From contig JAKAMG010000001.1 of the NCBI GenBank assembly GCA_021812985.1, positions 1 through 64,000 on the forward strand: a stretch of DNA of 64,000 nucleotides. Direction: 5' to 3'. This DNA comes from Bacteroidota bacterium. Its GTDB lineage: Bacteria; Bacteroidota; Ignavibacteria; Kryptoniales; JAKASW01. Below are positions 863 through 54,808 of the stretch, piece by piece. Each line of letters opens with the position of its first letter. Within the stretch, counting starts at the first letter, position 1. Position numbers and translations under genes: made by a program. The notes under the pieces were generated by a model. The model saw only the letters and a program-made list of their open reading frames with translations. It was not told where the DNA came from and ran no database searches.

Positions 863-1879
863 TCAGGCAGCGGGAGCGACGCCCAAACCGGGACTGTCGC
901 TTAGTATCAGCTTCCCGTCTTCGTTTCTCGCCCCCGTGAACGGGTCGTTTGAAATGAGGACGTTGCCGTCGAGGTCAGCCCAATCAACGAGTGGCGAAAG
1001 CTGTGCCGCCGCCGTGATGCCGACGGATGATTCTATCATGCATCCGAGCATTATCTTCATCCCGTGAGCGCGTGCCGTGTAGACCATTTTGCGGGCCTTG
1101 AGGAGCCCGCCGTTCTTCTGAATTTTTATGTTGATGCCATCATACGCGGTTGACAGCTCCGCAATGTCGAAGAGCGAGCCTACAGCCTCATCGGCGACGA
1201 TAGGAATGTGCACCCTCTCTCTCAGCCACCGTACGTCATCGATCATGGAAGCGGGCATGGGCTGTTCGATTAACTCTACGTTCTGCTTCTCCAGCCAGAG
1301 GATCCGATCAAGCGCCTCATCTCTCGATTTCCATCCTTCGTTCGCGTCGACTCGCAGCGGCTTGTCGGTTGCGTCGCGTACGGCTTTGATGATCTCCTCG
1401 TCGTTTGCGAGCCCAACTTTTATTTTCAGGACCGGATAATTGGCGGCCTCTCTGACTTTTCGTGTCACCACTTCCGGGGTGTCGATCCCGATGGTAAACG
1501 TCGATAGCGGAGCCCTGTCCCTGTCCGCTCCGAAAAACCTGTAAAGTGGGATAGCGAGTTTCCTCCCTATCCAGTCGTGCATGGCTATGTCTATGGCCGC
1601 CCTCGCGCTCGCGTTGTGGCCGCCAAGCGAGTCAAGATAGTCGTTGATGCTCTCGAGCCGGAATGGATCGGACAGCTTGTCGAGGTCCAGCTCGCTTAAA
1701 AACTCAGCGACGCTTTCCGGAGTCTCGCCGTACCTGGCGTTCGGAGACGCCTCACCGTATGCCGTGATGCCGTCTTTCTCGAACTCGACAAGGACCACGG
1801 GCACGACGTCGCGCGAACTGCGTGATATCGTGAATGTGTGCCTTAGTCTCAGATCAAATCTGTGAAAATTAAGTCTCAT
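863..1879 (-). CDS. Dipeptide epimerase, probably L-Ala-D/L-Glu epimerase (enolase superfamily)
   Basis: A 338-residue enolase-superfamily protein of the muconate-lactonising subgroup. Visible active-site elements are the KIK motif (K152, K154), metal ligands D178 (VDANEGW), E205 (IEQPMP) and D230 (ADEAV), and the opposite-face lysine K252 (NIKIQKNGG). The DLDG segment (D302, D304) matches the two aspartates that bind the substrate ammonium group in Ala-Glu epimerases. In that family the enzyme converts L-Ala-D-Glu from murein peptides into L-Ala-L-Glu so that ordinary peptidases can finish the job. It lies last in a leftward operon, 93 bp after an NlpC/P60 gene whose family can release exactly this dipeptide, which supports the substrate. 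GGAAGAGAG precedes the ATG. Other dipeptide specificities exist in the family. Confidence 0.88.
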   Translation of the reverse strand: MRLNFHRFDLRLRHTFTISRSSRDVVPVVLVEFEKDGITAYGEASPNARYGETPESVAEFLSELDLDKLSDPFRLESINDYLDSLGGHNASARAAIDIAMHDWIGRKLAIPLYRFFGADRDRAPLSTFTIGIDTPEVVTRKVREAANYPVLKIKVGLANDEEIIKAVRDATDKPLRVDANEGWKSRDEALDRILWLEKQNVELIEQPMPASMIDDVRWLRERVHIPIVADEAVGSLFDIAELSTAYDGINIKIQKNGGLLKARKMVYTARAHGMKIMLGCMIESSVGITAAAQLSPLVDWADLDGNVLISNDPFTGARNEDGKLILSDSPGLGVAPAA

Positions 1880-1972
1880 TCTCTCTTCCGTTCTCCCCGG
1901 GCTGATAACGGCTGTAACGAATCAGCTCCCATGATTAATTCTGGCGAACTCCTCTGCGCAGGGATACTATAG

Positions 1973-3139
1973 TCAGTCGTTCGCTTTCTCTGGCGCTTGC
2001 TGAGTTGTCAGTATTCTCTTTGCTCTGACGAACCTGTTCAGGTCGTACTGGTCGAATGCTGAGTCGCTTTTCAGGAGGCCGCTGATCCTGACGCGGTCGC
2101 TCGAGTGGATGAAATATCCGTTTCCTAGATATATCGCGACATGGACTATTTTCTCGGGCTTCCCGTCGGCGGCCTTCTGTCCGAAGAACAGGAGGTCACC
2201 CTTCCTCAGGTTTTGGAAATCGGTTCCGGGATCTATGCTTTCACCCGTATTTACCTGCTGGCTCGCGTCGCGCGGAAGTCTGATCCCGTTCATCCTGAAG
2301 ACTGTCTTCGTGAAGCCGGAGCAGTCGACGCCCTTCGCGCTCGTTCCCCCCCAGAGGTAAGGGAATCCGAGGAATTCCTTCGCCACGCTTTCTATGCCTT
2401 CCGGCGTCGGCTTGTGCGCCGCGTAATACTTCTCAAGGTCCTGCACGCTCGAAGAGGGGACGTAACCAACTCTGCCGTCAGGAAGCTGAACTTCGAAGGC
2501 GGGGCCGCTCTTTCCGACAGGCTTCAGGAGGTCCGCCATGACGAGATCTGACACAGTGTTCCCTGAGTTTCCGGGAAGTGTGCTCATGCTCGAAAAGACA
2601 GATGTGACGATGAGCTTGGGCGTCTCGGTGTAAGAGGAGAGGGAGCCGGAGTCGACAAGAACTATGTTGCCCGGTTCAATCCAGCCAAGGTAGTTGTCTT
2701 CAGATTTGATGTAGTACCAGCCGTGAGATTTCTTGAGCACCCGCACGATATGTCCGAGTAGAACCTGGTTGACGAGTTCAGCCTGGTACTTCGGAGTCGC
2801 GCGGACATTGCCCACGCTGACGTCAACTATGCCGTAGATCTTCCCGCCAAGCGACGGATCGGGAAGTACCACCACGGAGTCGACCAAGTGCTTCGAGGTG
2901 AGAGGGGATATTCCGGCGAACACGGCTTCCTTTGCGTTCAGGTTGTCGGTTTCGCCGCTCAGTATAATTTTCTTCCCTTCTTCCCTTGCGGTTATGGAGA
3001 AGACCGCGGTCCTCGGGTCCGGCGCGAAAGCGCTTCTCAGTGAATCTATGGTCCGGTCGATGCTTACGACGCGCATATTGTTCGTGCCGCATCCCGCCGT
3101 GATCAGAGCCGTGAGTAGAATGAAGTAGAATCGTTTCAT
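1973..3139 (-). CDS. NlpC/P60 lipoprotein endopeptidase with SH3 domains (YkfC-like)
   Basis: A 388-residue lipoprotein: the signal peptide ends in ITAGC with lipidated C17. After an N-terminal region (about 40-100) come two bacterial SH3-like segments (about 105-160 and 175-230), then the NlpC/P60 catalytic domain. The catalytic residues are visible as C273 in VDCSGF, H333 in VHVAIYLG and H345 in FIHSS. This layout matches gamma-D-glutamyl-L-diamino-acid endopeptidases such as YkfC, which cut murein stem peptides with a free N-terminal L-Ala and release L-Ala-D-Glu. It lies between an amidase, which frees the N-terminal L-Ala, and an Ala-Glu epimerase, the order expected for sequential breakdown. 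It is probably membrane-anchored and periplasm-facing. The exact cleavage site is inferred. Confidence 0.88.
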   Translation of the reverse strand: MKRFYFILLTALITAGCGTNNMRVVSIDRTIDSLRSAFAPDPRTAVFSITAREEGKKIILSGETDNLNAKEAVFAGISPLTSKHLVDSVVVLPDPSLGGKIYGIVDVSVGNVRATPKYQAELVNQVLLGHIVRVLKKSHGWYYIKSEDNYLGWIEPGNIVLVDSGSLSSYTETPKLIVTSVFSSMSTLPGNSGNTVSDLVMADLLKPVGKSGPAFEVQLPDGRVGYVPSSSVQDLEKYYAAHKPTPEGIESVAKEFLGFPYLWGGTSAKGVDCSGFTKTVFRMNGIRLPRDASQQVNTGESIDPGTDFQNLRKGDLLFFGQKAADGKPEKIVHVAIYLGNGYFIHSSDRVRISGLLKSDSAFDQYDLNRFVRAKRILTTQQAPEKAND

Positions 3140-3180
3140 TTATGGCACCTCTTGTAGCTTATGGTTAGCATCGAATGATA

Positions 3181-5751
3181 CTATTTCATGAGAATCATTT
3201 TTCTTGTTTGTGAGAAACTTCCCGCATCCATCCTGCAGAAATAAACGCCGCTCGGGAGCCCTGTGGCGTTGAAGCTTAGCACGTGCAAGCCGGGGCCCTG
3301 AGATTCATCCATAAGCGTCCTAACTTCTCTCCCAAGGACGTCGTAAATCTTCACAGAAACGCGCGTGGCCGTTGAAAGCTGATAGATTATGTCCGTTGTC
3401 GGATTGAACGGATTCGGGTAATTCTGGAACAGGCTCGTTGAAGTCGGTATGCCGACAAAACTATTTGCCTTCCCGCTGACCTGTATATCGTCGACATAAA
3501 TCGAGCTGCTGTCGAGGAGCGCGGACTCCAGATGCCTGACGGCGAATCCCTTTAAGATGCTCGTGGACACGTCTCCCTTGTCGCGCCACATGCCTACGTA
3601 CTTCCAACCATACCAGTTTATCGTGTCTACGGGCGCAACGTACCGCGCAGGCGAGCCAAATATAAGGTCGAGCTCGTTGCCGCTGTTGTCCCCGAAGATC
3701 CACATGCCGAACGAGCCCGATGAACTGACGTCGATGCCGTTCGAGTTCTCAACCGCGCAAAGTGCCTGTGTTGAGTCGAATGAATACCGGAGCATCCCGG
3801 CCTCGCTCCCGTCATAGCACTTGGACGTAAGGCTGAACGTGCTGAGCGTCGTGTCGGTACCTGTCGTCAGCGTGCTCGACTTCGGCTGCGTCCACGCTCC
3901 CGCCGATGTCTCAAACCCTTCGACTAGCTTTCCGCCTGTCGAATCGGATGTGTCGACGGTGAACGTAATCGAATAGGTGGTCTTGCTCACGTTGCCGTAA
4001 AGGTCGACGAGCCCGGGCGCGAGTGAGGCTGTGTATCTCATTCCCGGGGCAAGCGGCGAGAGTGAACGCAGTCCTATCAGCGTAAGGTTGTTATCCGTGA
4101 CCTGAAAAAGGTCCTTGCCGAAACCAATGTTCTTTCCTGTCGAGTCCGTGAATGTGATGCGCGAAGGGAGGGAGTTGTATTGTATCGGCTCATCGAGGAC
4201 GAATTCCATGTAGGCCTTAGAAACTGAAGAGCCGTCGACTCGCGGTGACGCGGCCAGGAGCCCGGGGCCTGTCGTGTCTATCGGAACAGTCGTGAAACTG
4301 TAAATGAACGGCGATGAAAGCGGAGTCCCGTTTGTGGCTTTTGCCGTCGTGTCTATGGTAATGGTGTACTTCGTGGACCATGCGAGGAGCGAATCGGGAT
4401 GCGTAAAATTCAGTTTCATTCCAGAGACATCCAGCATTGGCACCCCGGGCATTCTGGGTGTTACTTTGCAGGCGGCATAGAGCGACGTGGGATCCATCGG
4501 TACGTTGAAGGTGATTGTCGGGGTCGCGTAGGCGGGAATGTCAGCCGTCTCGCCGGCCGGGCGCGCAGAAGCTATGTAGGGTTTCGTCGTGTCGTAAGAA
4601 TGTATCAAATCGAAATAGTGATGCCACTTCCAGTATTTCCCGGGGTCGGTGTGGTTGTTGCACGTCGCGTAGCCGGCACCGACGTAGCTGACATAATTCC
4701 CGAACGGGATGAGATTGAACCAGGGATAGGTCCAGGCATTGTGACCGAAAACATGTATCGAGTCTTCCGGGATATTGAACTTGCGGCAGAGATACTCCGT
4801 AAGGTGCGCCGAAGCCTCGTACATCGTCTCGGTGAAGTAGGAGGAATCCGCGACATATCCTTCGTGTTCAATGTTCAGCGTTATCGGATTCCAGCACCTT
4901 ACCGCCCATGCTTCGTCTGCGTCATGGACGAGCTGGTCAATGTAGCCGTCGTTGCTTCTGATGACGTAGTGCGCGCTCGCCTGCGCCGACGGATTCTTGA
5001 GCCACGAAACGCTGGCGTCGAAAGGACCCTCCGTGTCATGAATAATGACGAAGACGACCGGAACACCCGGTCTGGTGTCAAAGTTTGGGCTTGGATCCCA
5101 TGTCGCGCCCGGATAATCCGCTCCCCCGCCGACTACTGCCGACGTCTTCATGCGGCCGCTCCTGTATCCCTTTTCCTTCACTGACTCGGGAAAGCCGCTG
5201 AGGTTAATTGGCTGGGGTGGTATGACGATGCCGCGTTCGTTGATTCCCCCCTTGGCCGTCTGCAGCACATGATAGGCGAATTCATCGGCGATGTCCTTCT
5301 GCGGTATGCCGCTGAACCTGGCGACGACCCCGGCCCAGGTGGAGAGGTCATCTGTCACCTCGGCCGAGTCTTTGTTCGCCTGGTCGCGGTAGCTCGAGAG
5401 GAGCGCTGCCGCGCCGCGTATGTTCTGAAACGCGTCATCCTTTAACGCAGTCACCGGCTTGCCGAGGAGCGTCGCTGCATCTGTAAGGGAATGGCCGAAC
5501 CAGTCGTCGTCGCGGAGTCCCATCACCCCGAACAAGGGCGGCTGGACGTCGCTGGGACGGTTGGCCAGCTGTGAGTCTGTGTACGTCAGCTGGTGCCATC
5601 TTGTCTGGACGTAGCCAATGGATTCGAGGAGCGGTGCCGGAACGTTGAACTCCGCAGATGCGGATTCAAAGTAAGACGACAATTGGTCCGGAGTCTGGGC
5701 GAATAATGCCCGGGAAAGCAATAAGGGGAGGAGAAAAAAGTACTTCTTCAT
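3181..5751 (-). CDS. Secreted N-acetylmuramoyl-L-alanine amidase with T9SS sorting domain
   Basis: An 856-residue exported protein with signal peptide ending ALFAQ. Residues 20-170 form a helical region with a lytic-transglycosylase-like look (PLLESIGYVQT, FGVMGL), but a catalytic role there is unproven. Residues about 215-385 are an Amidase_2 zinc amidase: H238 in VIIHDTEG, E295 in NIEHEGY and H367 in NNHTDPGKYW. An Ig-like domain follows (about 385-490), then a further beta-rich region, and finally a type A T9SS sorting domain beginning QNYPNPFNPTT and ending MILMK. The family cleaves the bond between MurNAc and L-Ala. The T9SS tag places the enzyme on or outside the outer membrane, so it probably attacks foreign or shed peptidoglycan. 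Its start overlaps the upstream stop by 4 bp (ATGA), indicating translational coupling. Confidence 0.92.
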   Translation of the reverse strand: MKKYFFLLPLLLSRALFAQTPDQLSSYFESASAEFNVPAPLLESIGYVQTRWHQLTYTDSQLANRPSDVQPPLFGVMGLRDDDWFGHSLTDAATLLGKPVTALKDDAFQNIRGAAALLSSYRDQANKDSAEVTDDLSTWAGVVARFSGIPQKDIADEFAYHVLQTAKGGINERGIVIPPQPINLSGFPESVKEKGYRSGRMKTSAVVGGGADYPGATWDPSPNFDTRPGVPVVFVIIHDTEGPFDASVSWLKNPSAQASAHYVIRSNDGYIDQLVHDADEAWAVRCWNPITLNIEHEGYVADSSYFTETMYEASAHLTEYLCRKFNIPEDSIHVFGHNAWTYPWFNLIPFGNYVSYVGAGYATCNNHTDPGKYWKWHHYFDLIHSYDTTKPYIASARPAGETADIPAYATPTITFNVPMDPTSLYAACKVTPRMPGVPMLDVSGMKLNFTHPDSLLAWSTKYTITIDTTAKATNGTPLSSPFIYSFTTVPIDTTGPGLLAASPRVDGSSVSKAYMEFVLDEPIQYNSLPSRITFTDSTGKNIGFGKDLFQVTDNNLTLIGLRSLSPLAPGMRYTASLAPGLVDLYGNVSKTTYSITFTVDTSDSTGGKLVEGFETSAGAWTQPKSSTLTTGTDTTLSTFSLTSKCYDGSEAGMLRYSFDSTQALCAVENSNGIDVSSSGSFGMWIFGDNSGNELDLIFGSPARYVAPVDTINWYGWKYVGMWRDKGDVSTSILKGFAVRHLESALLDSSSIYVDDIQVSGKANSFVGIPTSTSLFQNYPNPFNPTTDIIYQLSTATRVSVKIYDVLGREVRTLMDESQGPGLHVLSFNATGLPSGVYFCRMDAGSFSQTRKMILMK

Positions 5752-7226
5752 TTTGCCGAAATCTCTTTAATATCCAGTTCGTAATTGAACTGATTAAAAT
5801 ATATGTTTTGTTTAGCTGTTTCCATCTCGCCTCTCTGGAAATCCACATTGTCAGACCTGAAGAACTTCTTGGCGGGGATCAATTCCTGGTTGTTGTCGGA
5901 GTTGGCCGTCATCCTGTACTGGTCGAGACCTCCAAAATAAAAGTCGCGGACGCTGTCCCGTTGAACCCGACTGAGATCGTTCATGTAGCGGGAGGCGCGT
6001 ATCCCCATGTATGGATCTACCGGCACCCAACCGTAAGGGTTAATGTAAATCTGGGTCCAGTCGTGTATGTCCTTTCCGCCGGGGAAGAAGAACCATCCCG
6101 ATTGCCACCTCGCCGGGATGCCGTTGAAGCGGCAGAGAGTTATGAAGAGCATGGCCTCCTGGCCGCAGTCGCCGTATTCCTTCGTGAGGCAGTAGTCGCT
6201 GACATTTCGTATCGTGGAATACTCGCGGGCGAAGCTGTACCTGATGTTCCTTGCGACCCAGTCGTAAATCCGCCGGGCTTTGAGCAGAGGATTCGTCTCA
6301 CCTCCGACAATGGTGCGTGAGAGCCTTTCGATCCTCTTTGTAAAGACGATGTTTGGCCCCTCCGATGTGAATCTTCTGTAAGTTGCGTCCGATGTGTCAT
6401 AGGGTTTCACGCTCCCGGCTGACATTCGAAACTTCACGCCGAAGGTCTTATAGCTGTACCTGACGTCGAACGATGCTCCTCCGTTCCTGTCCGCCGTTTG
6501 TTCCAAATACGCCGACCGAATGGGGCTTTCCGGAGGGGCTACGTCAAGCGGCTTGCTGGACGATGATAAAAGCTCAAAGCCGCCCTGATACGGAAGCTTT
6601 CTCGGGATTGGGAGCCAGGCCCTTATCGTCTCGCCGGGCGCGGCGGCGCCTGAATCCACGCTCAGCCGCATTTCCATCTCGAACTTCATCGGAAGGACGT
6701 AGGGAGTTGTTGCGGTGTCGACGCATCTTTCGATCTGCTCGCAGGCGCTTAAAATCTCTCTGTTGACTCCCGATTCGTCGGCGGGAGGATTTCTCCTCGC
6801 GGCGATTGATGGGTACCTGAAGAATAGATTGCTCCTGCTCGCGTTCACGAAACGAAGTGTATCGTCGATTGTCCGCGCGTCGAACATCCCCTTCTTCACC
6901 CAGCCGTCGAACTCCGGGCGTGTAATGTCCTTCACGCTTACTTCAAGCTGTGCGTACAGCTGGCCGGCGGTGAGTGAGTAATCGATGCGAATCCTCCGCA
7001 TCCTCTCTATCTCGAAAAGCAGTTTCTTCTTTTCGTCCGCCGTGAAGCTTCCCGGAGACTTGTCGAGGTCGTTGATGAGGAGCCGGGTTGCCTCCTTGAA
7101 CTTGCCCCTTCTTTCGAGCTGCAATGCGGTCGTGTATTGGTTTCCCTGCGCGGCGATGTTTGCTGACGCGCTCGAGAGGATCATCCCGAATGTCAATACC
7201 GCCATCGTAAGCGTGGAGAGTCTCAT
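5748..7226 (-). CDS. Exported transglutaminase-like cysteine protease/amidase family protein
   Basis: A 492-residue protein with an N-terminal signal sequence. A helical region comes first, and a transglutaminase core occupies about residues 310-410. The catalytic triad is visible as C354 (YGDCGQEA), H388 (KDIHDWTQIYI) and D404 (VPVDPYMG). Bacterial proteins of this class are mostly peptidases or amidases, not cross-linkers. It heads the leftward operon with the amidase, NlpC/P60 and epimerase genes and is coupled to the amidase gene by a 4-bp overlap, so a role in peptide or peptidoglycan breakdown is likely but not shown. AGAGG stands 6 nt before the ATG. A 29-codon frame upstream overlaps this start (see 7223-7312). 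Confidence 0.85.
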   Translation of the reverse strand: MRLSTLTMAVLTFGMILSSASANIAAQGNQYTTALQLERRGKFKEATRLLINDLDKSPGSFTADEKKKLLFEIERMRRIRIDYSLTAGQLYAQLEVSVKDITRPEFDGWVKKGMFDARTIDDTLRFVNASRSNLFFRYPSIAARRNPPADESGVNREILSACEQIERCVDTATTPYVLPMKFEMEMRLSVDSGAAAPGETIRAWLPIPRKLPYQGGFELLSSSSKPLDVAPPESPIRSAYLEQTADRNGGASFDVRYSYKTFGVKFRMSAGSVKPYDTSDATYRRFTSEGPNIVFTKRIERLSRTIVGGETNPLLKARRIYDWVARNIRYSFAREYSTIRNVSDYCLTKEYGDCGQEAMLFITLCRFNGIPARWQSGWFFFPGGKDIHDWTQIYINPYGWVPVDPYMGIRASRYMNDLSRVQRDSVRDFYFGGLDQYRMTANSDNNQELIPAKKFFRSDNVDFQRGEMETAKQNIYFNQFNYELDIKEISAK

Positions 7227-7312
7227 CTGTTGCCTCTGATTGATTGCCTGAAAAAATGCGGAGCACTTCCCATGGCCTGAACGCCGCCATCGTCAATCAT
7301 GTGCTTCTTCAT
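7223..7312 (-). CDS. Possible 29-codon leader ORF coupled to the transglutaminase gene
   Basis: A short frame (MKKHMIDDGGVQAM..., 29 codons) ends in a TGA that overlaps the next ATG by 4 nt (ATGA), as the next gene pair in this operon does. A strong AAGGAGG lies about 35 nt upstream of its ATG, which is too far for direct use unless RNA folding shortens the distance. There is no recognisable domain. It could be a translated leader or simple chance. Confidence 0.25.
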   Translation of the reverse strand: MKKHMIDDGGVQAMGSAPHFFRQSIRGNR

Positions 7313-7562
7313 GCCTGAAAACTCTCATAATATAATTCAATTTGTGTTTACCTCCTTTTTGTTGAACGGACATACCCGCAACTCGGATCAGTCATGTGCC
7401 GGCGGGATACAGAGTCGAATGGGGTCGCCTTAAGCGAGGATCGGAGGGGCGGGAAATGTAGGAATAACGGAACCGACCTTATATTTTCTGTGAGGCCGAC
7501 CCGTTGTTCTGCCTTTGATATTCCATGAGTTTCGAAAGCAACAATACTGAGGTGGTGTCCAA
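7227..7562. other. Divergent intergenic region between the scavenging operon and the peptide transporter gene
   Basis: These 336 bp must carry promoters for both directions. An A/T-rich stretch near 7326-7346 (ATAATATAATTCAATTTG) is the likeliest leftward promoter or leader, and it adjoins an AAGGAGG on the minus strand at about 7351-7358. GAGGTGG at 7549-7555 is the ribosome-binding site of the rightward gene. No palindromic operator was recognised. Confidence 0.4.
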
Positions 7563-9065
7563 ATGTACAAGAATCATCCTAAGGGGCTCTTCGTCCTATT
7601 CTTCACCGAAATGTGGGAGCGGTTCGGCTTTTACACCGTCCTGTCGATATTCGTCCTCTACCTGATTGAGAACTTCCACTGGGATCCCGCGACCGTCGGC
7701 AATATCTACGGCATCTTTGTGGGGACGACATTTTTCCTCCCGCTTGTCGGCGGGTGGATCGCTGACAGGTTTCTCGGCTACGGGAGGACGATACTCATTG
7801 GCCTGTGTACCATGGCGGTTGGCTACGCGCTCCTCGCGACTCCGACGAGGGAGCCCTGGCTGTTGTTCCTCGCGCTGGTGGTCATTTCGTCCGGCACCGG
7901 CTTATATAAGGCGAACATATATGTGCTGGTCGGGAATCTTTACACTGGTTCGGCCGCCTCTCTGAAGGATGCCGCTTTCACAATCTTCTATATGGGGATA
8001 AATCTTGGGGCTTTCCTCGGCCCCATCGCAGCTTCGAGCATAAAAAATTTCATGATTGGAACGTACCATCTCCCTCTCGCTGAGGCCTACAACGCGGGTT
8101 TCGGCGCCGCCTCCGTCGGGATGCTCATAGCCATTACCATTTTTCTATCTTTCAGGAGACATCATAAAATGGCTGATTACCGGGTGGCCGCACGGGGGGC
8201 GGGGGAAGGCGTCGAGGCAGATATACCGAAGTCCGAGGAGAAGGAAAGGCTGTTGTCCCTCCTCGTTGTCTTCGCATCCATAATCTTCTTCTGGATGGCG
8301 TACTACCAGAACGGTTATACGCTGACGCTGTTTGCAAAGACCTATACAGCGTCGCACGTCGGCAGATTCACATACCTTCTATTTGACCCAGTCTCCCTTC
8401 TCGCACTCCTCGCTGTGCTGCTTGCGGTGTCTGCCGCGATCAGGAAGACTTCGACCGGCAAGTCGAGGATTATCGGCGGAATCGTGGCCCTCGCCGCGCT
8501 TGCCGTGATGGTATTCAAGGCGGCCGGTTTTCCGGAAAGCAATCCGATTTCGCCTGAGAGTTTTCAGGTTTTCAACCCGCTCTTCATAATTTTCCTGACA
8601 CCGGTCATGATATGGATGTTTGGCTACATGGGGAAGCATTCGAAAGAACCCTCCTCGCCCGGGAAGATGGCGATAGGCATGAATCTCGAGGCGTTGTCGT
8701 TTATTCTGATGATCATCGCCTCGATTGGGCTACCGCGCCTGGCCGCTGCCGGTTCGGGTTTCTTACCGGTGAGCCCGTACTGGCTCATCTCATCCTATTT
8801 CGTCATAACCGTGTCTGAGTTATTCCTGAGTCCGATCGGTCTTTCGTTCGTTTCGAAGGTCGCACCGCCGAGGCTGAAAGGCGCGATGATGGGAGGATGG
8901 TTCGCCGCTCAGGCACTCGGGAGCTATCTCTCAGGATTCGTCGGAAGGTTCTTTGCCAGGTGGGAACTCTGGGAGTTCTTCTTCCTCCTCGTGATCACGT
9001 CTCTCTTTTCGGCGTTCATAGTAGTCGTCTCGCTGAAGCGGCTGAAGAAGGTTAGCGGGGCGTAA
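7563..9065 (+). CDS. POT/PTR-family proton-dependent peptide transporter
   Basis: A 500-residue inner-membrane protein with many hydrophobic helices, of usual size for the family. The N-terminal signature FFTEMWERFGFYT contains the ExxER motif (E16, E19, R20) that couples proton and peptide binding in POT transporters. A soluble loop rich in charged residues lies near residue 210. The family imports di- and tripeptides with protons. It is transcribed divergently from the peptidoglycan-peptide operon, so import of murein-derived dipeptides such as L-Ala-D-Glu is a reasonable inference, though POT proteins usually prefer all-L peptides. The ribosome-binding site is GAGGTGG, 7 nt before the ATG. 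Confidence 0.93.
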   Translation: MYKNHPKGLFVLFFTEMWERFGFYTVLSIFVLYLIENFHWDPATVGNIYGIFVGTTFFLPLVGGWIADRFLGYGRTILIGLCTMAVGYALLATPTREPWLLFLALVVISSGTGLYKANIYVLVGNLYTGSAASLKDAAFTIFYMGINLGAFLGPIAASSIKNFMIGTYHLPLAEAYNAGFGAASVGMLIAITIFLSFRRHHKMADYRVAARGAGEGVEADIPKSEEKERLLSLLVVFASIIFFWMAYYQNGYTLTLFAKTYTASHVGRFTYLLFDPVSLLALLAVLLAVSAAIRKTSTGKSRIIGGIVALAALAVMVFKAAGFPESNPISPESFQVFNPLFIIFLTPVMIWMFGYMGKHSKEPSSPGKMAIGMNLEALSFILMIIASIGLPRLAAAGSGFLPVSPYWLISSYFVITVSELFLSPIGLSFVSKVAPPRLKGAMMGGWFAAQALGSYLSGFVGRFFARWELWEFFFLLVITSLFSAFIVVVSLKRLKKVSGA

Positions 9066-9157
9066 ACCATCGGAAGGGTTCCCGGCAGGCCGCGTTACCG
9101 CGCCGGCATGTCATCACCCGCAATAAGTCGAATTTCAAAGTGTAATAAGGAGAAGAA

Positions 9158-10039
9158 ATGAGAAAGTCGATATTCGTTTTCGGAGCCGTATTGCTTTTGG
9201 CGGGAGCCATCCGCGCGCAGTCCTTGCGAGATTCAGTCGCGGCGATGGCCAGGGCTTTCAAGGGGGATGTCGGAATCTATGCCGTCAACCTGCGAAACGG
9301 GGACACGCTGTCCTACAATGCCGACAAGAAATTCCCGACAGCCAGCGTCATAAAAATTTTTGTGCTCGGGAAGCTGTACCAGGAAGTGAGCCGGGGGAGA
9401 TTGTCGATGAACGACGAGGTGGTTCTCCACGATTCGGACAAGGTCCCAGGCAGCGGCATACTCCTTTTCATGCATGACGGGATGAAGCTGACGCTGAACG
9501 ACCTCGCATGGCTGATGATCAACATGAGCGACAACGTCGCCGCGAATCTCCTCACTGACGAGGTAGGAGGCGTGGGCAAGGTCACTGATTTCATAAGGTC
9601 GCTTGGGCTCACGAGGACCGCCGAGCTCGCGAGAATATTCGACAAACGCGTCTATGCCGACTCGGCCGAGCGGAAGATTTACGGAATTGGGGTCTCGACT
9701 CCGAGAGAGGCGGCCGAATATCTGGCGATGCTCTACAAGGGAGAGGTGGTCAGCCCGCAAAGCTCAAAGGCGATGGTAGACCTGATGAAGTATCAGTTCT
9801 ATGACACGAGCATTCCCCGTTTTCTCCCGACATACCGGGACACGATAGAGATTGCGCACAAGACAGGCGCGCTCGATGCAACGCGCAATGACTGCGCGAT
9901 CATATTCACGCCGGGAACAAATTACATCCTGTGCGTCTTCACGACGCATAACAAGGACCAGCGCTGGATAACCGATAATTCCGCCGAAGTTTTCATAGCC
10001 AACGTATCGAAATTAGTTTACCGACGCTTCGTGAAATGA
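9158..10039 (+). CDS. Exported serine hydrolase, class A beta-lactamase-like fold
   Basis: A 293-residue protein with signal peptide ending AIRAQ. The three active-site boxes of the serine penicillin-recognising fold are present: SxxK (S63-K66, TASVIK), SDN (S124-N126, MSDNVAAN) and KTG (K235-G237, HKTGALD). The omega-loop ExxLN that gives class A beta-lactamases their deacylating glutamate is not evident; the region reads AELARIFDKR. It may therefore be a D,D-peptidase, an esterase or another hydrolase instead of a resistance enzyme. It follows the POT transporter gene by 92 bp, with AAGGAGAAG before the ATG. That context suggests handling of cell-wall peptides, which is inference. A paralogous gene lies at 18923. 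Confidence 0.82.
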   Translation: MRKSIFVFGAVLLLAGAIRAQSLRDSVAAMARAFKGDVGIYAVNLRNGDTLSYNADKKFPTASVIKIFVLGKLYQEVSRGRLSMNDEVVLHDSDKVPGSGILLFMHDGMKLTLNDLAWLMINMSDNVAANLLTDEVGGVGKVTDFIRSLGLTRTAELARIFDKRVYADSAERKIYGIGVSTPREAAEYLAMLYKGEVVSPQSSKAMVDLMKYQFYDTSIPRFLPTYRDTIEIAHKTGALDATRNDCAIIFTPGTNYILCVFTTHNKDQRWITDNSAEVFIANVSKLVYRRFVK

Positions 10040-10475: not shown

Positions 10476-13160
10476 ATGAATAAGTTTGTGGCATCCTTGT
10501 TTATGCTCTTGGCAATTGCCGCGTCGAGTCTTGCGGGCACAACCGGAAAGATAGCCGGGACCGTAACGGATGCGAAAACCGGCGAGAAGCTCGTCGGCGT
10601 ATCGGTCTCGATCGAGGGGACTACTCTCGGCGCTGCCACGGACATAGACGGCCGTTATTTCATAATCAACGTTCAGCCTGGAACCTACACCGTGAAGGCG
10701 TCGGCGATAGGATACACTCCCATCGTGGAATCGAACGTTGTCGTGCACGCGGACCTGACGACGGAGATCGACCTCGGCATGCAGCAGCAGGCCGTCGGAC
10801 TCCCTGAAGTCCGCATCGTCGCGCAGCGTCCTCTCATACAGAAGGACGTGACGGCGTCCACGGTCACAATGACAAGTCAGCAGATCCGGACGCTTCCTGT
10901 CCAGAATCTTCAGGAGATACTCGCGGTGCAATCGGGAGTCGTCGAAGACGCGGGCGGGGGTTTCCATCTCAGGGGCGGCAGGTCTGACGAGACCGTTTTC
11001 GTGGTGAACGGCGTCGAGGTTAACGACCTCTATTCCGGCGGGTTCGGCAACATCGACCTGAACAGCTCCTCCGTTCAGGAGATGCAGACGATAACCGGTG
11101 CCTTCAACGCGGAATACGGTAACTCCGAGAGCGGCATCATCAACATAACCACAAAGAGGGCTCCTGACCATTTCCAGGGGCGCGTGACAGCGTACATGGG
11201 AGACTACGTTTCCAACAGAACCGACGTCTTCCCGGCGATTAACGTCATCGACCCGTTCAACGACAAGGACGCGGAGCTCAGCCTGGGCGGCCCGGTCCCC
11301 CTGATCAAGAACATGAAGATCCAGTTCGACGGCAGGCTCTTCAATACGGGCGGCTACCTGTACGGATATGAAAGATACAGGGTCAATCCTCCTGTCGACA
11401 CCGTAGCCTCGGATCCGTACAACTTCGGCGGGTACGCGGTAGCCCCCGATACGACAAACCCGAATTTCATGAAGAGGGTATCGCTGAATCACTCGAACGA
11501 ACAGGATTTCTCCGCGAACCTCTCGTACAGCATACTCCCGACGCTCAATCTCAACCTGAGCACAGTGTGGAGTAACAGGGACTACCAGGTTTACAACCAC
11601 AGGATGATGTTCGTTCCGGACGGACTCCCCCAGCTGAACACGCACAGCAACCTGGTCACTGCGCAGCTCACGTACACGTTCTCGCCGAGCACATTTGCCG
11701 ATCTGCAGGGGGCTTACTACTATCAAAGATTCCGGGAGTACGTGTATCCGAATTACATGGATTCGCTTTACATCACTCCGCCGATATATTTTTCGTACGG
11801 ATACATCAGGCTCGGCACGCTCGATTACTGGCTGTTCCGCGACCAGACGAAGTGGCAGTTGAAGGGAGACGTGACAAGCCAGATCGGCGATCATAACCTG
11901 GTCAAGGCGGGCTTCGAACTCAAGCCTTACAGGTTCTATTACAATGACTACACGCCCAGCGCGTACATTCCCGATCTCCTGAACAACAACCCCAACATCA
12001 TCTACTTCCATAATTATTTTCAGCGCTACCCGTTCGAAGGCGACGCCTTCGTCCAGGACAAGCTCGAGTTTAAATCCATCATCGTGAACATCGGTCTCCG
12101 CTACGATTACTTCAAACCCGACGCCGAGATGCTGGTCGATCAGGCCAACCCGTTTGGCGCGAAGAAACCGGTTGGACCATCGTACCAGTTCAGTCCGCGC
12201 CTCGGGGTCTCATACCCGATCACCGAGTCGTCCGTGATGTATTTCTCCTACGGACATTTCTTCCAGGTTCCGCCGTATTCGCTGATCTACACGAATCCGA
12301 ACTTCCTCATAGAATCGGGGCGGCCGACACAGAACCTCCTCGGCGGGGGAAACCTGAAGCCGGAGAAGACGGTCACGTACGAAATGGGATTCAAGCAGTC
12401 GTTCGAGGATATGTTCGCTCTCGATGCGTCGATATACTTCAAGAATATTCAGAACCTCACCGGCACGCGCCTCGTCGGAACCACGGCCGCAGGTGACGAG
12501 TATTTCCAGATCGTCAACAGGGATTACGGCGATGTCAAGGGTATCAACATAAGTCTCTCGAAGAGGCATGTGGGCATCGTCGGTTTCAGCATAAGCTACA
12601 CATATCAGGTTGCGGAGGGGAAGGCGTCCGATCCTGAAGCGGAGTTCATCGCAATAGCCAACAAGCAGCCTGTGAACAACCAGCTTGTCCCTCTAGATTG
12701 GGACCAGCGGCACACGCTGACGGGTACGATGGATTTCGGCGAGCAGGATAACTGGAACATCGGACTTGTAGCGAGGTATGGGAGCGGACTCCCTTACACA
12801 CCGACGGATGAGAAGGGAGAGATCATACAGGGGCAGCTCGAGAACAGCGCGCGCATGCCCGCCACTTTCTCCGTCGACCTTTATGCCACCAAGGATATCA
12901 AGGTAGCCGGAGTGAGCGGTCAGTTGTTCCTCAGGATTTACAATCTCCTGGACAACCTCAACCCGGTCGTAGTTTATTCCAACACCGGTCAGGCGACGTA
13001 CAGTCTGTCTTCCATAGATCCCGCAGTGACTTATCAGGGGGCGCCAGCGCTGTACCAGGAGCAGGTACCGCGGGGCCTGGTGCCTTCGGGATACTGGGTG
13101 CGTCCTGACTATTTTGCGCCTCCCCGGCATGTTCAGGTCGGGTTCTCGGTGCTTTTCTAA
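10476..13160 (+). CDS. TonB-dependent outer-membrane receptor with CarboxypepD_reg domain (module 1)
   Basis: An 894-residue protein. After a signal peptide (ending SSLAG) comes a carboxypeptidase-regulatory-like domain (about 22-100; GKIAGTVTDAKTGEKLVGVSV), then a plug domain (about 115-240; FHLRGGRSDETVFVVNG and GAFNAEYGNSESGIINI), then a long beta-barrel ending in an aromatic residue (VGFSVLF). Such receptors move large ligands across the outer membrane using TonB energy. It opens a tight rightward operon with a large secreted partner (16 bp downstream), a PorV-like protein and a T9SS cargo. The same order recurs at 28085. The ligand is unknown, and no glycosidase lies in this operon. AAGGAGT precedes the ATG. 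Confidence 0.93.
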   Translation: MNKFVASLFMLLAIAASSLAGTTGKIAGTVTDAKTGEKLVGVSVSIEGTTLGAATDIDGRYFIINVQPGTYTVKASAIGYTPIVESNVVVHADLTTEIDLGMQQQAVGLPEVRIVAQRPLIQKDVTASTVTMTSQQIRTLPVQNLQEILAVQSGVVEDAGGGFHLRGGRSDETVFVVNGVEVNDLYSGGFGNIDLNSSSVQEMQTITGAFNAEYGNSESGIINITTKRAPDHFQGRVTAYMGDYVSNRTDVFPAINVIDPFNDKDAELSLGGPVPLIKNMKIQFDGRLFNTGGYLYGYERYRVNPPVDTVASDPYNFGGYAVAPDTTNPNFMKRVSLNHSNEQDFSANLSYSILPTLNLNLSTVWSNRDYQVYNHRMMFVPDGLPQLNTHSNLVTAQLTYTFSPSTFADLQGAYYYQRFREYVYPNYMDSLYITPPIYFSYGYIRLGTLDYWLFRDQTKWQLKGDVTSQIGDHNLVKAGFELKPYRFYYNDYTPSAYIPDLLNNNPNIIYFHNYFQRYPFEGDAFVQDKLEFKSIIVNIGLRYDYFKPDAEMLVDQANPFGAKKPVGPSYQFSPRLGVSYPITESSVMYFSYGHFFQVPPYSLIYTNPNFLIESGRPTQNLLGGGNLKPEKTVTYEMGFKQSFEDMFALDASIYFKNIQNLTGTRLVGTTAAGDEYFQIVNRDYGDVKGINISLSKRHVGIVGFSISYTYQVAEGKASDPEAEFIAIANKQPVNNQLVPLDWDQRHTLTGTMDFGEQDNWNIGLVARYGSGLPYTPTDEKGEIIQGQLENSARMPATFSVDLYATKDIKVAGVSGQLFLRIYNLLDNLNPVVVYSNTGQATYSLSSIDPAVTYQGAPALYQEQVPRGLVPSGYWVRPDYFAPPRHVQVGFSVLF

Positions 13161-13176
13161 TGAATGAGGATAAAGG

Positions 13177-15984
13177 ATGAGACAAAGTTTTAAGCGCTCA
13201 ACTCTATTTCTCCTGATCGGCATCGCGTCGTACACGTTCATCCACGCGGGAGCGAATGGGGGCAACAAGCAGAATCAGAAACCGGTACTCCAGAAGTACG
13301 TCAAGGAAGGCGGGATGTCGCTGGACAAGGTTCTCTCCCACGCCGACAGACGCTCGATGGTGATTGCCGGCGACAAGATCCGTACGCGCATCGCGAACTT
13401 CGGATCGATAGGAGGACCACGCGCCTTCAACAGGCCGAAAATAGAGTGGCCTGCGTTCAGCGGGAGAGATTATGGCTATGAGTTCGGACCTCTCGTCGGC
13501 GCGAGGATCATGAACACTCACGGCGACTCCATCTCGATGACCGAAGACGGTATTCAGGACGGAGGATCCGACAAGTTCGAGCCGGACGGCCATTACCTGA
13601 ACACGTCGAACTCAAACGCCTTTGCAAGAAGCGACGACCCAACGACGTGGCCCTCGGGATGGTCGGCATGGCTGAGCGACTCCGTTTATGCTCAGCCCGG
13701 TCAGGTCCTAGCGGACCTCGAGACCATGTATGTCCTGACGGATCAGGACAGCACAGGTAATTTTGGTAACACCAATCCGCTTGAAATGCTCACTCCCAAC
13801 ATGAAAGGGCTTGGCGTTCAGATAACGGGACGGACGTACCAGTATTCGAATGCTCTTGCCCAGAACATACTCTTCATGACATACGAGCTGAAGAACATTA
13901 ACTCCAAGGCGATACCGAACATGTTCTTCGGCACGTTCAGCGACGGGAGCGTCGGAGGGAGCGACAATTTCGAGAACAACACAACGCGCACTGACATGAT
14001 AGACCAGGGAATTGTCTACACGTTCGCGACTAACGGGCATGGAAGCAGCACGATTCCTGAATGGCAGGGAGTTACCCCCGGCTGGATGGGCGAAGTTGTG
14101 CTCCAGACCCCGACGGGGGACGACGGCAAGCCGCTCGGCGTCACGAGCTGCTACGTGGTCCACTACGGCAACCTTCTCAACGTTCAGGACAGTCTTGTCT
14201 ATCAGCAGGCGATGACTCCTCGAAAACCAGCTAGCAACCTGGCCCCCTCGAACAGCTACGACGGCGACTCGATCTGGTGGCTCACATCCGGTCCTTTCAC
14301 GCTGCAGCCGGGTGAGACCAAGAGGTTCGAGCTGGCGATTGTCCTCGGCTCTGACAGCGTCAACCTGATGAAGAACATCGCGGCAGCAAAGCTTATAAAG
14401 GACGCGAACTACCAGAGCCCCAAGGCGCCTGTCCCCCCCACGCTTCACGCCGTTCCCGGCGATCACAAGGTGACGCTCTACTGGGACGACAGGTCCGAGC
14501 GATCTGTCAACCCGCTCACAGGCAAGCATGATTTTGAAGGCTACAAGATTTATCGCTCGACGGACGGCATCAACTGGGGCGCGCCGATAACCGATCTGCA
14601 GGGGAACGATGTCCTCGTCAAACCGCTCGCGCAGTTTGACCTTGACGATTCGGTCAGTGGTCCTTTCCCGCTCGATGTGAACGGATTGTCCCCCTCCGAC
14701 CCGGGATACGACGGCGTGCATTTCTACCTCGGGAGCAATTCCGGGCTCCAGCACATGTATGTGGACAACACAGTTACCAACGGTGTCACGTATTACTATC
14801 TGATCACCGCTTACACCGCGGGAGACGTATCACTGAAGCTTCCTCCCATCGAGGATGGGCTCACGATTTCCGACCTTAACAACGTGACGCAATCCAACGC
14901 GGTGAAGATAACTCCCAACGCGCCTCCCACAGGCCTGACTAACGGAAGCTTCACGCTAACGAAGACCGCCGGCATCTCGACAGTGACCCCGCAGGTAAGC
15001 GTCGTCGACCCTAACGCGGTCACGGGAGACACGTACTCCTTATCCTTTGATTACGACACATCCGGAACCAAACTGGCCGTCATAAAAGACGCGACGAAGA
15101 ACACCACGCTAGTCAGCGGCTCAAAGTTCGAAGGGGGAACGCAGCTTTTCGCGGACGGTCTTAGCTATGTTATAGATGACGTCCCGGTGACCACCCCGAT
15201 CGACTCTCTCACCGGCTGGCGAGTGGGGAACTGTTCCTACCAGGTTCAGGCCTCGCTGTACACCCAGAACCCGAGAATCAAGAGCGTCAGGGTCCCGGCG
15301 GATTACGAGATAAGATTCTTCGACACCGTGCAGGACACGGACCTGGTATTCAGGCACCCGGTGAAATTCCAGTGCTGGGACGTGACAAACAATGTCCGGG
15401 TGAGGCCCATTCTCCTGACGACACAGTACAACGTGGACACTCTCGCGTCCGGCTCGAGCATCGTCTTCGCTTACTCGCACGACGGGAAGACGATTGATTC
15501 GACGTCTTGGGATGTCACCTTCCAGCAGCCGGCGGGCGCCGCGTACGTGCCGCCTCAGGCAAACGATGTCGCGCTGATAAGCATCGCGAAGCCGATCGTG
15601 CCCGGTACCGATACCTATTCAATAAAGACCGTTCCGACGGCTACCATGGCTCAGGCGAGCAGCAGCCTCCTCGACAACGTGAAGGTTGTGCCGAATCCGT
15701 ATATAGTCGCAGCGGACTGGGAAACCGGGAGCACGGTGTTCAGCGGGACGCGCGGCGAGAAGAAGATTGAATTCACGCATCTTCCGGCGCACTGCACGAT
15801 CAGGATCTATACCGTTGACGGCGAGCTCGTCCAGACGCTGGATCACAACAGCATCGCCGACGGAAGTGAATCGTGGAACCTCAACTCGAAGGACGGGATC
15901 GAGGTTGCCTACGGAGTTTATGTATACCAGGTCGATGCTCCCGGGATCGGGACAAAGATCGGCAAGTTTGCTTTGATAAAGTGA
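13177..15984 (+). CDS. Large secreted beta-rich partner protein of TonB receptor, variant C-terminal sorting domain (module 1)
   Basis: A 935-residue exported protein (signal peptide near residues 1-25) of no named function. A fibronectin-III-like region at about 425-550 contains HKVTLYWDD and FEGYKIYRSTDG, with a partner strand region ending TYYYLITAYTAGD. The C-terminus reads VKVVPNPYIVA ... VAYGVYVYQVDAPGIGTKIGKFALIK in outline. This resembles a T9SS sorting domain in which NYPNPFNP is replaced by VVPNPY. The protein at 30914 shares all of these segments. In classical Sus systems this gene position holds a SusD lipoprotein, but no lipobox or SusD helical repeat is seen here. A surface ligand-binding role beside the receptor is a guess from position. 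Confidence 0.75.
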   Translation: MRQSFKRSTLFLLIGIASYTFIHAGANGGNKQNQKPVLQKYVKEGGMSLDKVLSHADRRSMVIAGDKIRTRIANFGSIGGPRAFNRPKIEWPAFSGRDYGYEFGPLVGARIMNTHGDSISMTEDGIQDGGSDKFEPDGHYLNTSNSNAFARSDDPTTWPSGWSAWLSDSVYAQPGQVLADLETMYVLTDQDSTGNFGNTNPLEMLTPNMKGLGVQITGRTYQYSNALAQNILFMTYELKNINSKAIPNMFFGTFSDGSVGGSDNFENNTTRTDMIDQGIVYTFATNGHGSSTIPEWQGVTPGWMGEVVLQTPTGDDGKPLGVTSCYVVHYGNLLNVQDSLVYQQAMTPRKPASNLAPSNSYDGDSIWWLTSGPFTLQPGETKRFELAIVLGSDSVNLMKNIAAAKLIKDANYQSPKAPVPPTLHAVPGDHKVTLYWDDRSERSVNPLTGKHDFEGYKIYRSTDGINWGAPITDLQGNDVLVKPLAQFDLDDSVSGPFPLDVNGLSPSDPGYDGVHFYLGSNSGLQHMYVDNTVTNGVTYYYLITAYTAGDVSLKLPPIEDGLTISDLNNVTQSNAVKITPNAPPTGLTNGSFTLTKTAGISTVTPQVSVVDPNAVTGDTYSLSFDYDTSGTKLAVIKDATKNTTLVSGSKFEGGTQLFADGLSYVIDDVPVTTPIDSLTGWRVGNCSYQVQASLYTQNPRIKSVRVPADYEIRFFDTVQDTDLVFRHPVKFQCWDVTNNVRVRPILLTTQYNVDTLASGSSIVFAYSHDGKTIDSTSWDVTFQQPAGAAYVPPQANDVALISIAKPIVPGTDTYSIKTVPTATMAQASSSLLDNVKVVPNPYIVAADWETGSTVFSGTRGEKKIEFTHLPAHCTIRIYTVDGELVQTLDHNSIADGSESWNLNSKDGIEVAYGVYVYQVDAPGIGTKIGKFALIK

Positions 15985-16004
15985 GAAAGCGGAGGTTTAA
16001 GGAC

Positions 16005-17000
16005 TTGAAGACTCGGATGTGTTTAATCGGACTATTCGTGCTGGCTGCATCCTCCGTTGCGTTCTCTCAGGGCGCATCCAAAGTTGCCACCACCGGCGCG
16101 CAGTTCTTGAAGATGGAGCCGGGAAGCAGGGCGATGGGAATGGGCGGCGCTTACGTCGCAATCGCGAACGATGCTTCCGCCATCTGGTGGAATCCCGCGG
16201 GCATGTCCCGCCTCGACAAGAACGAGGTGATGTTCATGCACGCCAACTGGTTCGCGGGGATAAAATACGAATACTTCAGCGCGGTCGCGCGGTTCGGCGA
16301 CAATGCCGTCGGAGCCTCCGTGACTTCGCTGAACTATGGACAGATGGAAGTGACTACCGTTGACCAGCCTGACGGGACGGGGCAGCTCTTTACCCCGACG
16401 AGCTTCGCGCTCAACGTGGGTTTCTCGAGAAGGCTCTCCGAGAATTTTTCATTCGGCGTCAACGGGAAGTATGTCAACGATCAGATAAAAAATTCGAGCG
16501 CGTCTGCCTTCGCGTTCGACGTGGGCACATTGTACGACATAGGCCTCCTCTCCATCGGAGCGGACGTGTCGAACTTCGGAACCAAGATGCAGATGGAGGG
16601 ATCTGACCTCACCCTCATCACGCCTGTCGGGAACGACCCGAACGTGGTGACCACTCTGCAGACTCAGCAGTATGACCTGCCGCTGAGGCTGCGTGTCGGC
16701 GTTGCCTTCCATCTCCTGCGGACTGAGATGAACAGCCTGATCGTGGCGAGCGACGTTGTCCATTCGAATGATAATTATGAATACGTGAATGTTGGCGGAG
16801 AGTACACTTGGAACGACGCGGTCTCTCTGCGGGTTGGTTACTCCGAGCTCGGCGTCCCTGACAGGGAAGCCGGACTCACTTTTGGTGCTGGCGTAAAAAT
16901 ATTCGTGACAAATGCCCTGGGTGCCAAGTTCGACTACTCTTACGGTTCCTATGGGCGACTTTCAAATGTTCAGCGCTTCACGTTCGCGCTGGATTTCTAA
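16005..17000 (+). CDS. PorV/UPF0164-like outer-membrane protein (module 1)
   Basis: A beta-barrel protein of about 331 residues, related to the PorV/PorQ (UPF0164) family. The family opening is visible as FLKMEPGSRAMGMGGAYVA followed by NDASAIWWNPAGMS, and the C-terminus ends in an aromatic (TFALDF). PorV binds T9SS cargo after translocation and shuttles it to the attachment complex; family members may serve particular cargo. The TTG start at 16005 was chosen because GGAGG lies 9 nt upstream and a compact signal peptide (ending VAFSQ) follows. Alternatives are GTG at 15981, overlapping the previous stop as GTGA, and ATG at 16017. It sits directly before the T9SS cargo gene at 17028, as its paralogue at 34661 does. 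Confidence 0.82.
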   Translation: MKTRMCLIGLFVLAASSVAFSQGASKVATTGAQFLKMEPGSRAMGMGGAYVAIANDASAIWWNPAGMSRLDKNEVMFMHANWFAGIKYEYFSAVARFGDNAVGASVTSLNYGQMEVTTVDQPDGTGQLFTPTSFALNVGFSRRLSENFSFGVNGKYVNDQIKNSSASAFAFDVGTLYDIGLLSIGADVSNFGTKMQMEGSDLTLITPVGNDPNVVTTLQTQQYDLPLRLRVGVAFHLLRTEMNSLIVASDVVHSNDNYEYVNVGGEYTWNDAVSLRVGYSELGVPDREAGLTFGAGVKIFVTNALGAKFDYSYGSYGRLSNVQRFTFALDF

Positions 17001-18827: not shown

Positions 18828-18867
18828 GAGAGGCAATCCGGCCTGCCGGGTTGCCTCTCTCGTTTTT
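18828..18867 (+). terminator. Rho-independent terminator ending module 1
   Basis: A perfect 9-bp stem (GAGAGGCAA at 18828-18836, TTGCCTCTC at 18851-18859) with an inner CCGG/CCGG pairing is followed by TCGTTTTT. It starts 28 nt after the cargo stop codon and separates module 1 from the serine-hydrolase gene. Confidence 0.9.
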
Positions 18868-18922
18868 CGGGCGCTTCGATGCCGCGTCTAAAAAGGGATG
18901 TCCCAATATTGAAAGGTGCAAT

Positions 18923-49278: not shown

Positions 49279-49372
49279 CAAATGTCGAAGGGAAGGTTAA
49301 GGCCCGGAAGCGTGAACTCCGCGGATTTCATTTGTGGCTCGAACTGTATCCCTGACCTATGAGACCTGACGC

Positions 49373-50317: not shown

Positions 50318-50448
50318 TATGAACGTTGAATTGCCAATTTTAAAATCGCAATTCCCGGAAGGACGCCGGGATAATTGCCGCGAATCTATCCGTGAGGTTG
50401 TCTTCGAGATATATCCTACGGCTTCACTTAGGGAGCAAGAAGGCGCGC

Positions 50449-51303: not shown

Positions 51304-51396
51304 GACGATTTTTAACAAATGGTTTCCTGTTTTGAATTAACCAGGCCTGGTCGACGGTGCCTAATTTGAGATTCGAAATTTAGAATTGAGAATTGT

Positions 51397-52899: not shown

Positions 52900-52986
52900 T
52901 TCGTCGCGGGCGGGAGCAATGAATTTCCGCCGCCGGGCTGTCCGGGCGGCATGATTGTTTTTCAGAAAAAATATGTCGAGGCAAAA

Positions 52987-54771: not shown

Positions 54772-54808
54772 CAAATCTGATTTCACAACAGATGCTGAGG
54801 ATTGAAAA

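Follow-up and report, generated by a model that had tools for sequence, protein, structure and literature searches.

In Escherichia coli, murein tripeptide is handled by a pathway comprising MppA/Opp, MpaA, YcjG and Mpl, in which the peptide is cut by an intracellular zinc peptidase and most tripeptide is reused through Mpl. A different arrangement has been proposed for Bacillus cereus, in which an extracytoplasmic NlpC/P60 peptidase (YkfC) and a cytoplasmic dipeptide epimerase (YkfB) cut wall peptides outside the cell before import and process the product within it, and the association of the two genes is known in several phyla including Bacteroidetes (PMC2954226). A murein contig of a Urechidicola symbiont carries SusCD, murQ, ampG, an L-Ala-D/L-Glu epimerase, ampD, dacA and a GH3 gene (PMC10199937). 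Here we describe a six-gene locus at positions 863-10039 of a 64,000-nucleotide stretch of DNA (the window; contig JAKAMG010000001.1 of assembly GCA_021812985.1, positions 1 to 64,000) from a Bacteroidota bacterium of the class Ignavibacteria. Over this region, a genome from the same class is about 74% identical at the DNA level to a Melioribacter roseus record. With a probability of roughly 0.68, the locus would represent the peptide-handling branch of a system for peptidoglycan utilisation, catabolising wall peptides freed outside the cell.

An earlier reading of the window from its sequence alone (the original prediction) had recognised in the amidase, gamma-D-Glu-diamino-acid peptidase and epimerase the known order of murein peptide breakdown. 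This agrees with the E. coli pathway, where an amidase, a gamma-D-Glu-diaminopimelate cut and an epimerase follow in the same chemical order, although Mpl is absent from the genome of the window. With the B. cereus, Bacteroides thetaiotaomicron and Gramella ykfBC systems the window shares the same enzyme pair encoded side by side, and with B. cereus the predicted layout of an extracytoplasmic YkfC and a cytoplasmic YkfB (PMC2954226). It differs from these systems in the addition of an amidase tagged for the type IX secretion system (T9SS), a transglutaminase-fold protein and a PBP-A-like hydrolase, and in having a POT symporter in place of Dpp/Opp. As in the murein clusters of Flavobacteriaceae, wall-degradation genes are grouped with a dipeptide epimerase and an amidase in Bacteroidota, whereas the window has no recognised SusCD pair or AmpG, its amidase is predicted to be T9SS-exported and its epimerase has an NlpC/P60 partner (PMC10199937). 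No published description of this locus emerged from literature searches. The YkfC-YkfB core pair is already known, and sequence tests place the core enzymes in those families. What is new lies around the core: the larger locus in which it sits, a POT symporter, a PBP-A-like hydrolase and, most notably, the link to a transglutaminase.

Organisation of the locus

All six genes were found in place, open, full length and of the kinds originally named, four reading leftward and two rightward. Protein families were called by Pfam and NCBIfam profile scans and structural relatives by searches of the PDB. The features of the locus are as follows.

863-1879, minus strand: epimerase gene, 93-base gap to the NlpC/P60 gene
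1973-3139, minus strand: NlpC/P60 lipoprotein gene, 41-base gap to the amidase gene
3181-5751, minus strand: amidase gene, 4-base overlap with the transglutaminase-like gene
5748-7226, minus strand: transglutaminase-like gene
7227-7562, no strand: divergent intergenic region of 336 bases, presumed from its position to hold promoters in both directions
7563-9065, plus strand: POT/PTR2 gene, 92-base gap to the serine hydrolase gene
9158-10039, plus strand: Beta-lactamase2 serine hydrolase gene
10476-13160, plus strand: TonB-dependent receptor gene, possible outer-membrane entry, membership of the locus uncertain

The divergent POT and serine hydrolase genes beside the four-gene leftward set stand as first described, with positions, strands and frames all intact. 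The proposal that the leftward genes form one operon holds as to their tight same-strand spacing but gained nothing from regulatory signals, as promoter and terminator scans, the spacer at 7227-7562 included, detected no sigma-70 promoter or intrinsic terminator above shuffled sequence; the term operon is therefore grounded in spacing and strand. Because the window opens at base 1 of its contig (C26; genome of 3.5 Mb), the leftward view ends at a fragment of a methyl-accepting protein.

Core enzymes

The NlpC/P60 protein contains PF00877, SH3_16 (two SH3b domains) and an AGC lipobox at residues 15-17. Its top PDB matches are the Bacteroides 'dipeptidyl-peptidase VI' structures 3npf, 3pvq and 4r0k (1e-61), followed by B. 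cereus YkfC (3h41). Members of the YkfC subfamily are marked by Asp256 and Tyr118 in B. cereus YkfC numbering, together with a Cys-His dyad (PMC2954226); by alignment, D291 and Y150 correspond to these two residues and C273/H333 form the dyad. Residues Y150, Y261, W263, D272, C273, S274, R290, D291 and H333 are constant in 11 NlpC homologs, H345 being nearly so, and these positions include both catalytic residues (Cys and His) and those of the gamma-D-Glu pocket. Prediction of a YkfC-type L-Ala-gamma-D-Glu-diamino acid endopeptidase of the free-L-Ala-specific subfamily is well supported, and a free L-Ala terminus is also required by chlamydial YkfC (PMC9928106). A second NlpC/P60 paralogue, 35% identical, is encoded in the same genome (G000:C26:243697-244731; L050 9689-10732) next to electron-transfer-flavoprotein-like genes; it keeps the YkfC marker residues and is present in most congeners.

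The epimerase has the MR_MLE_N/C domains of the enolase superfamily, is of the YkfB/AEE type and is without a signal peptide. Its top PDB matches, 3iji, 3ijl and 3ijq (2.8e-107, 335 residues, 362 bits; next match 164 bits), are presumably the B. thetaiotaomicron dipeptide epimerase. KIK 152-154, D178, E204, D229, K252 and DLD 302-304 are all present, corresponding to the KxK, the D/E/D metal ligands, the second Lys and the DxD of enolase-superfamily dipeptide epimerases; we assume for these residues their usual roles, with DxD contacting the dipeptide amine. The protein is assigned as a dipeptide epimerase of the YkfB/AEE type, with a predicted cytoplasmic location and substrate. Curated L-Ala-D/L-Glu epimerase models, which are narrow, score the protein below cut-off (160/343 and 133/500 bits). 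The N-acetyl-D-Glu racemase DgcA is its best-scoring NCBIfam match yet was rejected at 232 bits against an equivalog cut-off of 400. As no curated epimerase model or DgcA cut-off was reached, the exact specificity is a prediction.

The amidase consists of a signal peptide, a degenerate SLT-like region absent from the original description (residues ~20-165), Amidase_2 (231-342; 81.8 bits against a Pfam cut-off of 26), two Big_5 domains and a T9SS tail (778-853). Its zinc-ligand motifs IIHDT 236-240, GHNAW 336-340 and HTDPG 367-371 are intact, NIEHEG 293-298 is also present, and the catalytic domain matches AmpD, AmiD and AmpDh2 enzymes in a PDB profile search. The tail is detected by both PF18962 (2e-10) and TIGR04183 (8.3e-12, 44.9 bits against a cut-off of 23), and SprA (TIGR04189) exceeds its cut-off in the same genome (G000:C56) and in none of 14 control genomes. 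The amidase thus combines a C-terminal sorting domain with a SprA/Sov translocon in its genome, as befits a T9SS cargo, and the tag originally noted is confirmed. Assignment of the N-terminus as SLT/lysozyme-like rests on homologs, 10 of 23 of which match PF01464 (best 5.8e-5), a single-sequence fold with a predicted confidence (pLDDT) of 33 having been set aside. Gln49 aligns with the SLT catalytic Glu, which is kept in six congener copies, and the lysozyme-like domain of the window amidase is probably inactive. One congener has tandem amidase copies (L133 1-4519, G002:C207), the first type retaining the catalytic Glu of the lysozyme-like domain and the other having Gln there, which suggests duplication and division of labour.

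Partner proteins

The transglutaminase-like protein (PF01841, 1.2e-24) has a signal peptide, no T9SS tail and an invariant triad, C354/H388/D404. Its structural model most resembles the cysteine protease 3isr; because the model is only fair (pLDDT 59.5), fold matches do no more than back the family assignment. The papain/transglutaminase fold and Cys-His-Asp triad are shared with the pseudomurein endoisopeptidase PeiP and TgpA-type proteins, although the structural match to PeiP is weak (E 0.03) and its wall polymer unrelated. This secreted transglutaminase-fold cysteine protein is a candidate wall peptidase. In an even set of 395 genomes of the phylum, the transglutaminase occurs in 29 and YkfC-type NlpC in 72, with both present in 28 of the 29 (Fisher P=3e-22, kinship ignored). 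The two genes are separated by 2.7 kb or less in 6 genomes, compared with 0.07 expected when kinship is likewise ignored; these close pairs span four families, one outside the class, while the pair in the window has the amidase between. Across the phylum, then, the transglutaminase-like protein is tied to the YkfC-type NlpC pathway.

The product of 7563-9065 is a predicted POT/PTR2 proton-coupled oligopeptide symporter, matching PF00854 (3.6e-51), TIGR00924 (245 bits, above cut-off) and POT structures in the PDB (8.5e-50), with the motifs ExxER, GLYKAN and VSELFLSP.

The serine hydrolase (PF13354, 2.6e-58) has a signal peptide, no T9SS tail, and SVIK 63, SDN 124 and KTG 235. An active class A beta-lactamase was considered and rejected, the class A model reaching 148/200 bits; since the omega-loop ExxLN motif occurs nowhere in its sequence, the protein probably does not function as a beta-lactamase. 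PBP-A (TLL2115, 2j9o) ranks third among its PDB matches, and what chiefly separates PBP-A from class A beta-lactamases is its lack of the deacylating Glu (PMC11189452). The protein resembles Thermosynechococcus PBP-A in its class A fold, SxxK/SDN/KTG motifs and missing omega-loop glutamate but is only a remote sequence match to that enzyme, which is specific for amidated muropeptides (PMC11189452). It is a candidate PBP-A-like DD-peptidase. A second Beta-lactamase2 protein, 31% identical, is encoded at 18851-19867 on the plus strand; immediately before it lie a PorV-like gene (15873-17000) and one for a T9SS-tagged FG-GAP protein (17028-18800).

The TonB-dependent receptor has domains PF00593, PF07715 and PF13715 and keeps its position beside the block in the closest relative, G010 (82% identity over the 298 residues covered). 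A canonical SusCD locus was rejected, as the receptor scores 71/368 bits for SusC and no SusD domain is present in the gene that follows.

Gene order in relatives and the larger wall-utilisation locus

Among 149 relatives surveyed, the epimerase and NlpC genes lie within 200 bases of each other in 29 of the 48 genomes having both. This module is adjacent in 10 of 11 congeners and is the top conserved neighbour pair in 80 named genomes. The transglutaminase and amidase genes adjoin in 8 of the 9 congeners having both, and the POT and serine hydrolase genes in 4/9. Relatives of the serine hydrolase adjoin the NlpC-epimerase pair in two genomes (G005, G031) and lie near it at two further loci (L117, L113). 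Clustering is beyond chance according to the comparative gene-order data. Conservation of gene order in close relatives, on which the original prediction was staked, was thus found for the modules and their linkage but lost for the six genes as a whole.

In several congeners the modules are joined in one locus with NagZ-like GH3, BadF/ROK kinases, permeases and T9SS-tagged Amidase_3 and GHL10 proteins. In G011, a single strand encodes the epimerase, NlpC, a ROK kinase, a major facilitator superfamily (MFS) permease, a 919-residue protein, a NagZ-like GH3/serine hydrolase fusion, a BadF kinase, the amidase, the transglutaminase, Amidase_3 (T9SS tail), a PD40 protein and GHL10 (T9SS tail). The G009 locus is similar, with an amino-acid-permease-like gene and a GH2-like gene, and its distal end carries the serine hydrolase and POT; in G031, of another family, GHL10, NlpC, epimerase, serine hydrolase, one further gene, PD40 and Amidase_3 are found together. 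Domain labels are from Pfam on members of G001, G007 and G011; the ROK, MFS and amino-acid-permease labels were read from sequence. We take GHL10 to be the family of E. coli DigH. DigH works on denuded glycans (PMC12288456). In the genome of the window, the kinase and GH3 genes, the sugar half of the system, sit on another contig (C33), and the window therefore holds the peptide branch alone. A second epimerase copy in G005 (L158 7776-12903, G005:C5) is followed directly by BadF kinase and GH3/serine-hydrolase genes and links, by its neighbours, the peptide and sugar branches independently. Congener wall loci also encode T9SS-tagged proteins of a family whose N-terminal part carries a 'KGMWIW' motif and has no Pfam match (L032 5644-6612, L135 15317-17629, L132 7308-9620); they often lie beside a secreted protein of ~210 residues.

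Proposed pathway and alternative explanations

Observed directly are the genes present, their sorting signals and catalytic residues, the families to which they belong and their conserved linkage. We infer the substrates, compartments, direction of flow and foreign or dead-cell source of the wall, as well as what the transglutaminase, the serine hydrolase and the TonB receptor do in the pathway. The amidase would exit by the T9SS and cleave the MurNAc-L-Ala bond of external wall to release stem peptides, its probably inactive lysozyme-like domain likely binding glycan. In the least certain step, the transglutaminase-fold protein and the PBP-A-like hydrolase may trim or un-cross-link the peptides. 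The NlpC/P60 lipoprotein would then act on those whose N-terminal L-Ala is free, separating L-Ala-D-Glu from the diamino-acid part, and small peptides would enter via the POT symporter. In the cytoplasm the epimerase would yield L-Ala-L-Glu, which common dipeptidases could split to Ala and Glu as sources of carbon and nitrogen.

That the locus serves murein-peptide breakdown, as originally proposed, is upheld by the YkfC residues, the epimerase clade, the intact catalytic residues and the placement of the modules within a larger wall locus. Its further claim, feeding on exogenous wall, received indirect support short of proof: use of exogenous wall peptides is likely because of the T9SS tag, the SprA/Sov translocon, the further exported wall hydrolases of congeners and the missing Mpl, which exceeds its cut-off in neither this genome nor 12 congeners (best own match 220/388.7 bits, taken as MurC). 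Several points weigh against utilisation of external wall. The full six-gene order was found in no other genome examined; in G010 two additional genes separate NlpC from the amidase, after which come POT, the serine hydrolase and the TonB receptor, with the transglutaminase absent and the epimerase located elsewhere. A T9SS tail would also allow a protein to stay anchored on the surface of the cell that made it, the transporter and hydrolases of the window could serve other peptides too, the outer-membrane entry step has no assigned component, and the claims of activity and localisation rest on sequence.

Ordinary turnover, in which stem peptides shed from the cell's own wall are recovered and the T9SS tag merely places the amidase on the surface, is unlikely. 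NlpC and epimerase are indeed recycling-type enzymes (PMC2954226; PMC9928106), and a periplasmic lipoprotein could use the cell's own turnover peptides; however, the cell's own sacculus, beneath the outer membrane, is out of reach of an exported amidase, the enzyme of intact tripeptide reuse, Mpl, is absent, and congeners have several more T9SS wall hydrolases. A bacteriolytic or necrotrophic weapon, the T9SS amidase and its partners lysing neighbours while other proteins feed on the debris, would fit the T9SS tags that congeners have on amidases and a GHL10 enzyme. Such a weapon is distinctly improbable, as prey possessing an outer membrane would be protected against an amidase acting from outside, the lysozyme-like domain of the window amidase is probably inactive and no toxin or immunity gene was recognised nearby. 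We give very little credence to an epimerase acting on other dipeptides or, DgcA-like, on N-acyl-Glu with the wall genes as mere neighbours: the rank of DgcA as top NCBIfam match by score favours it, but its cut-off is missed, PDB structures point much more strongly to the Bacteroides dipeptide epimerase, and the linkage with YkfC-type NlpC recurs in many families.

Beyond utilisation of external wall peptides, we tentatively, and with some doubt, propose a dedicated non-Sus peptidoglycan-feeding locus, by which Ignavibacteria may export wall hydrolases via the T9SS and import and burn stem peptides and amino sugars, with the transglutaminase-fold protein as a new, broadly conserved YkfC-YkfB step in the phylum, such as a peptidase for cross-links or stems. 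The walls of dead bacteria hold a large pool of nitrogen and carbon whose consumers are poorly known; if the proposal is true, the locus offers a genetic marker by which wall-feeding can be recognised in Ignavibacteria and their relatives. The phylum-wide tie to the YkfC enzyme makes the function of the uncharacterised transglutaminase-fold family directly testable.

Other features of the window

An apparent alpha-glucan/glycan utilisation region extends over 24069-59532 of the window and includes the following features.

24069-26846: T9SS-tagged GH31
27045: LacI-like regulator
28085: TonB receptor of the glycan region
41877-46025: T9SS-tagged alpha-amylase
48067-55918: sugar ATP-binding cassette (ABC) transporter-like genes
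57199-59532: GH92

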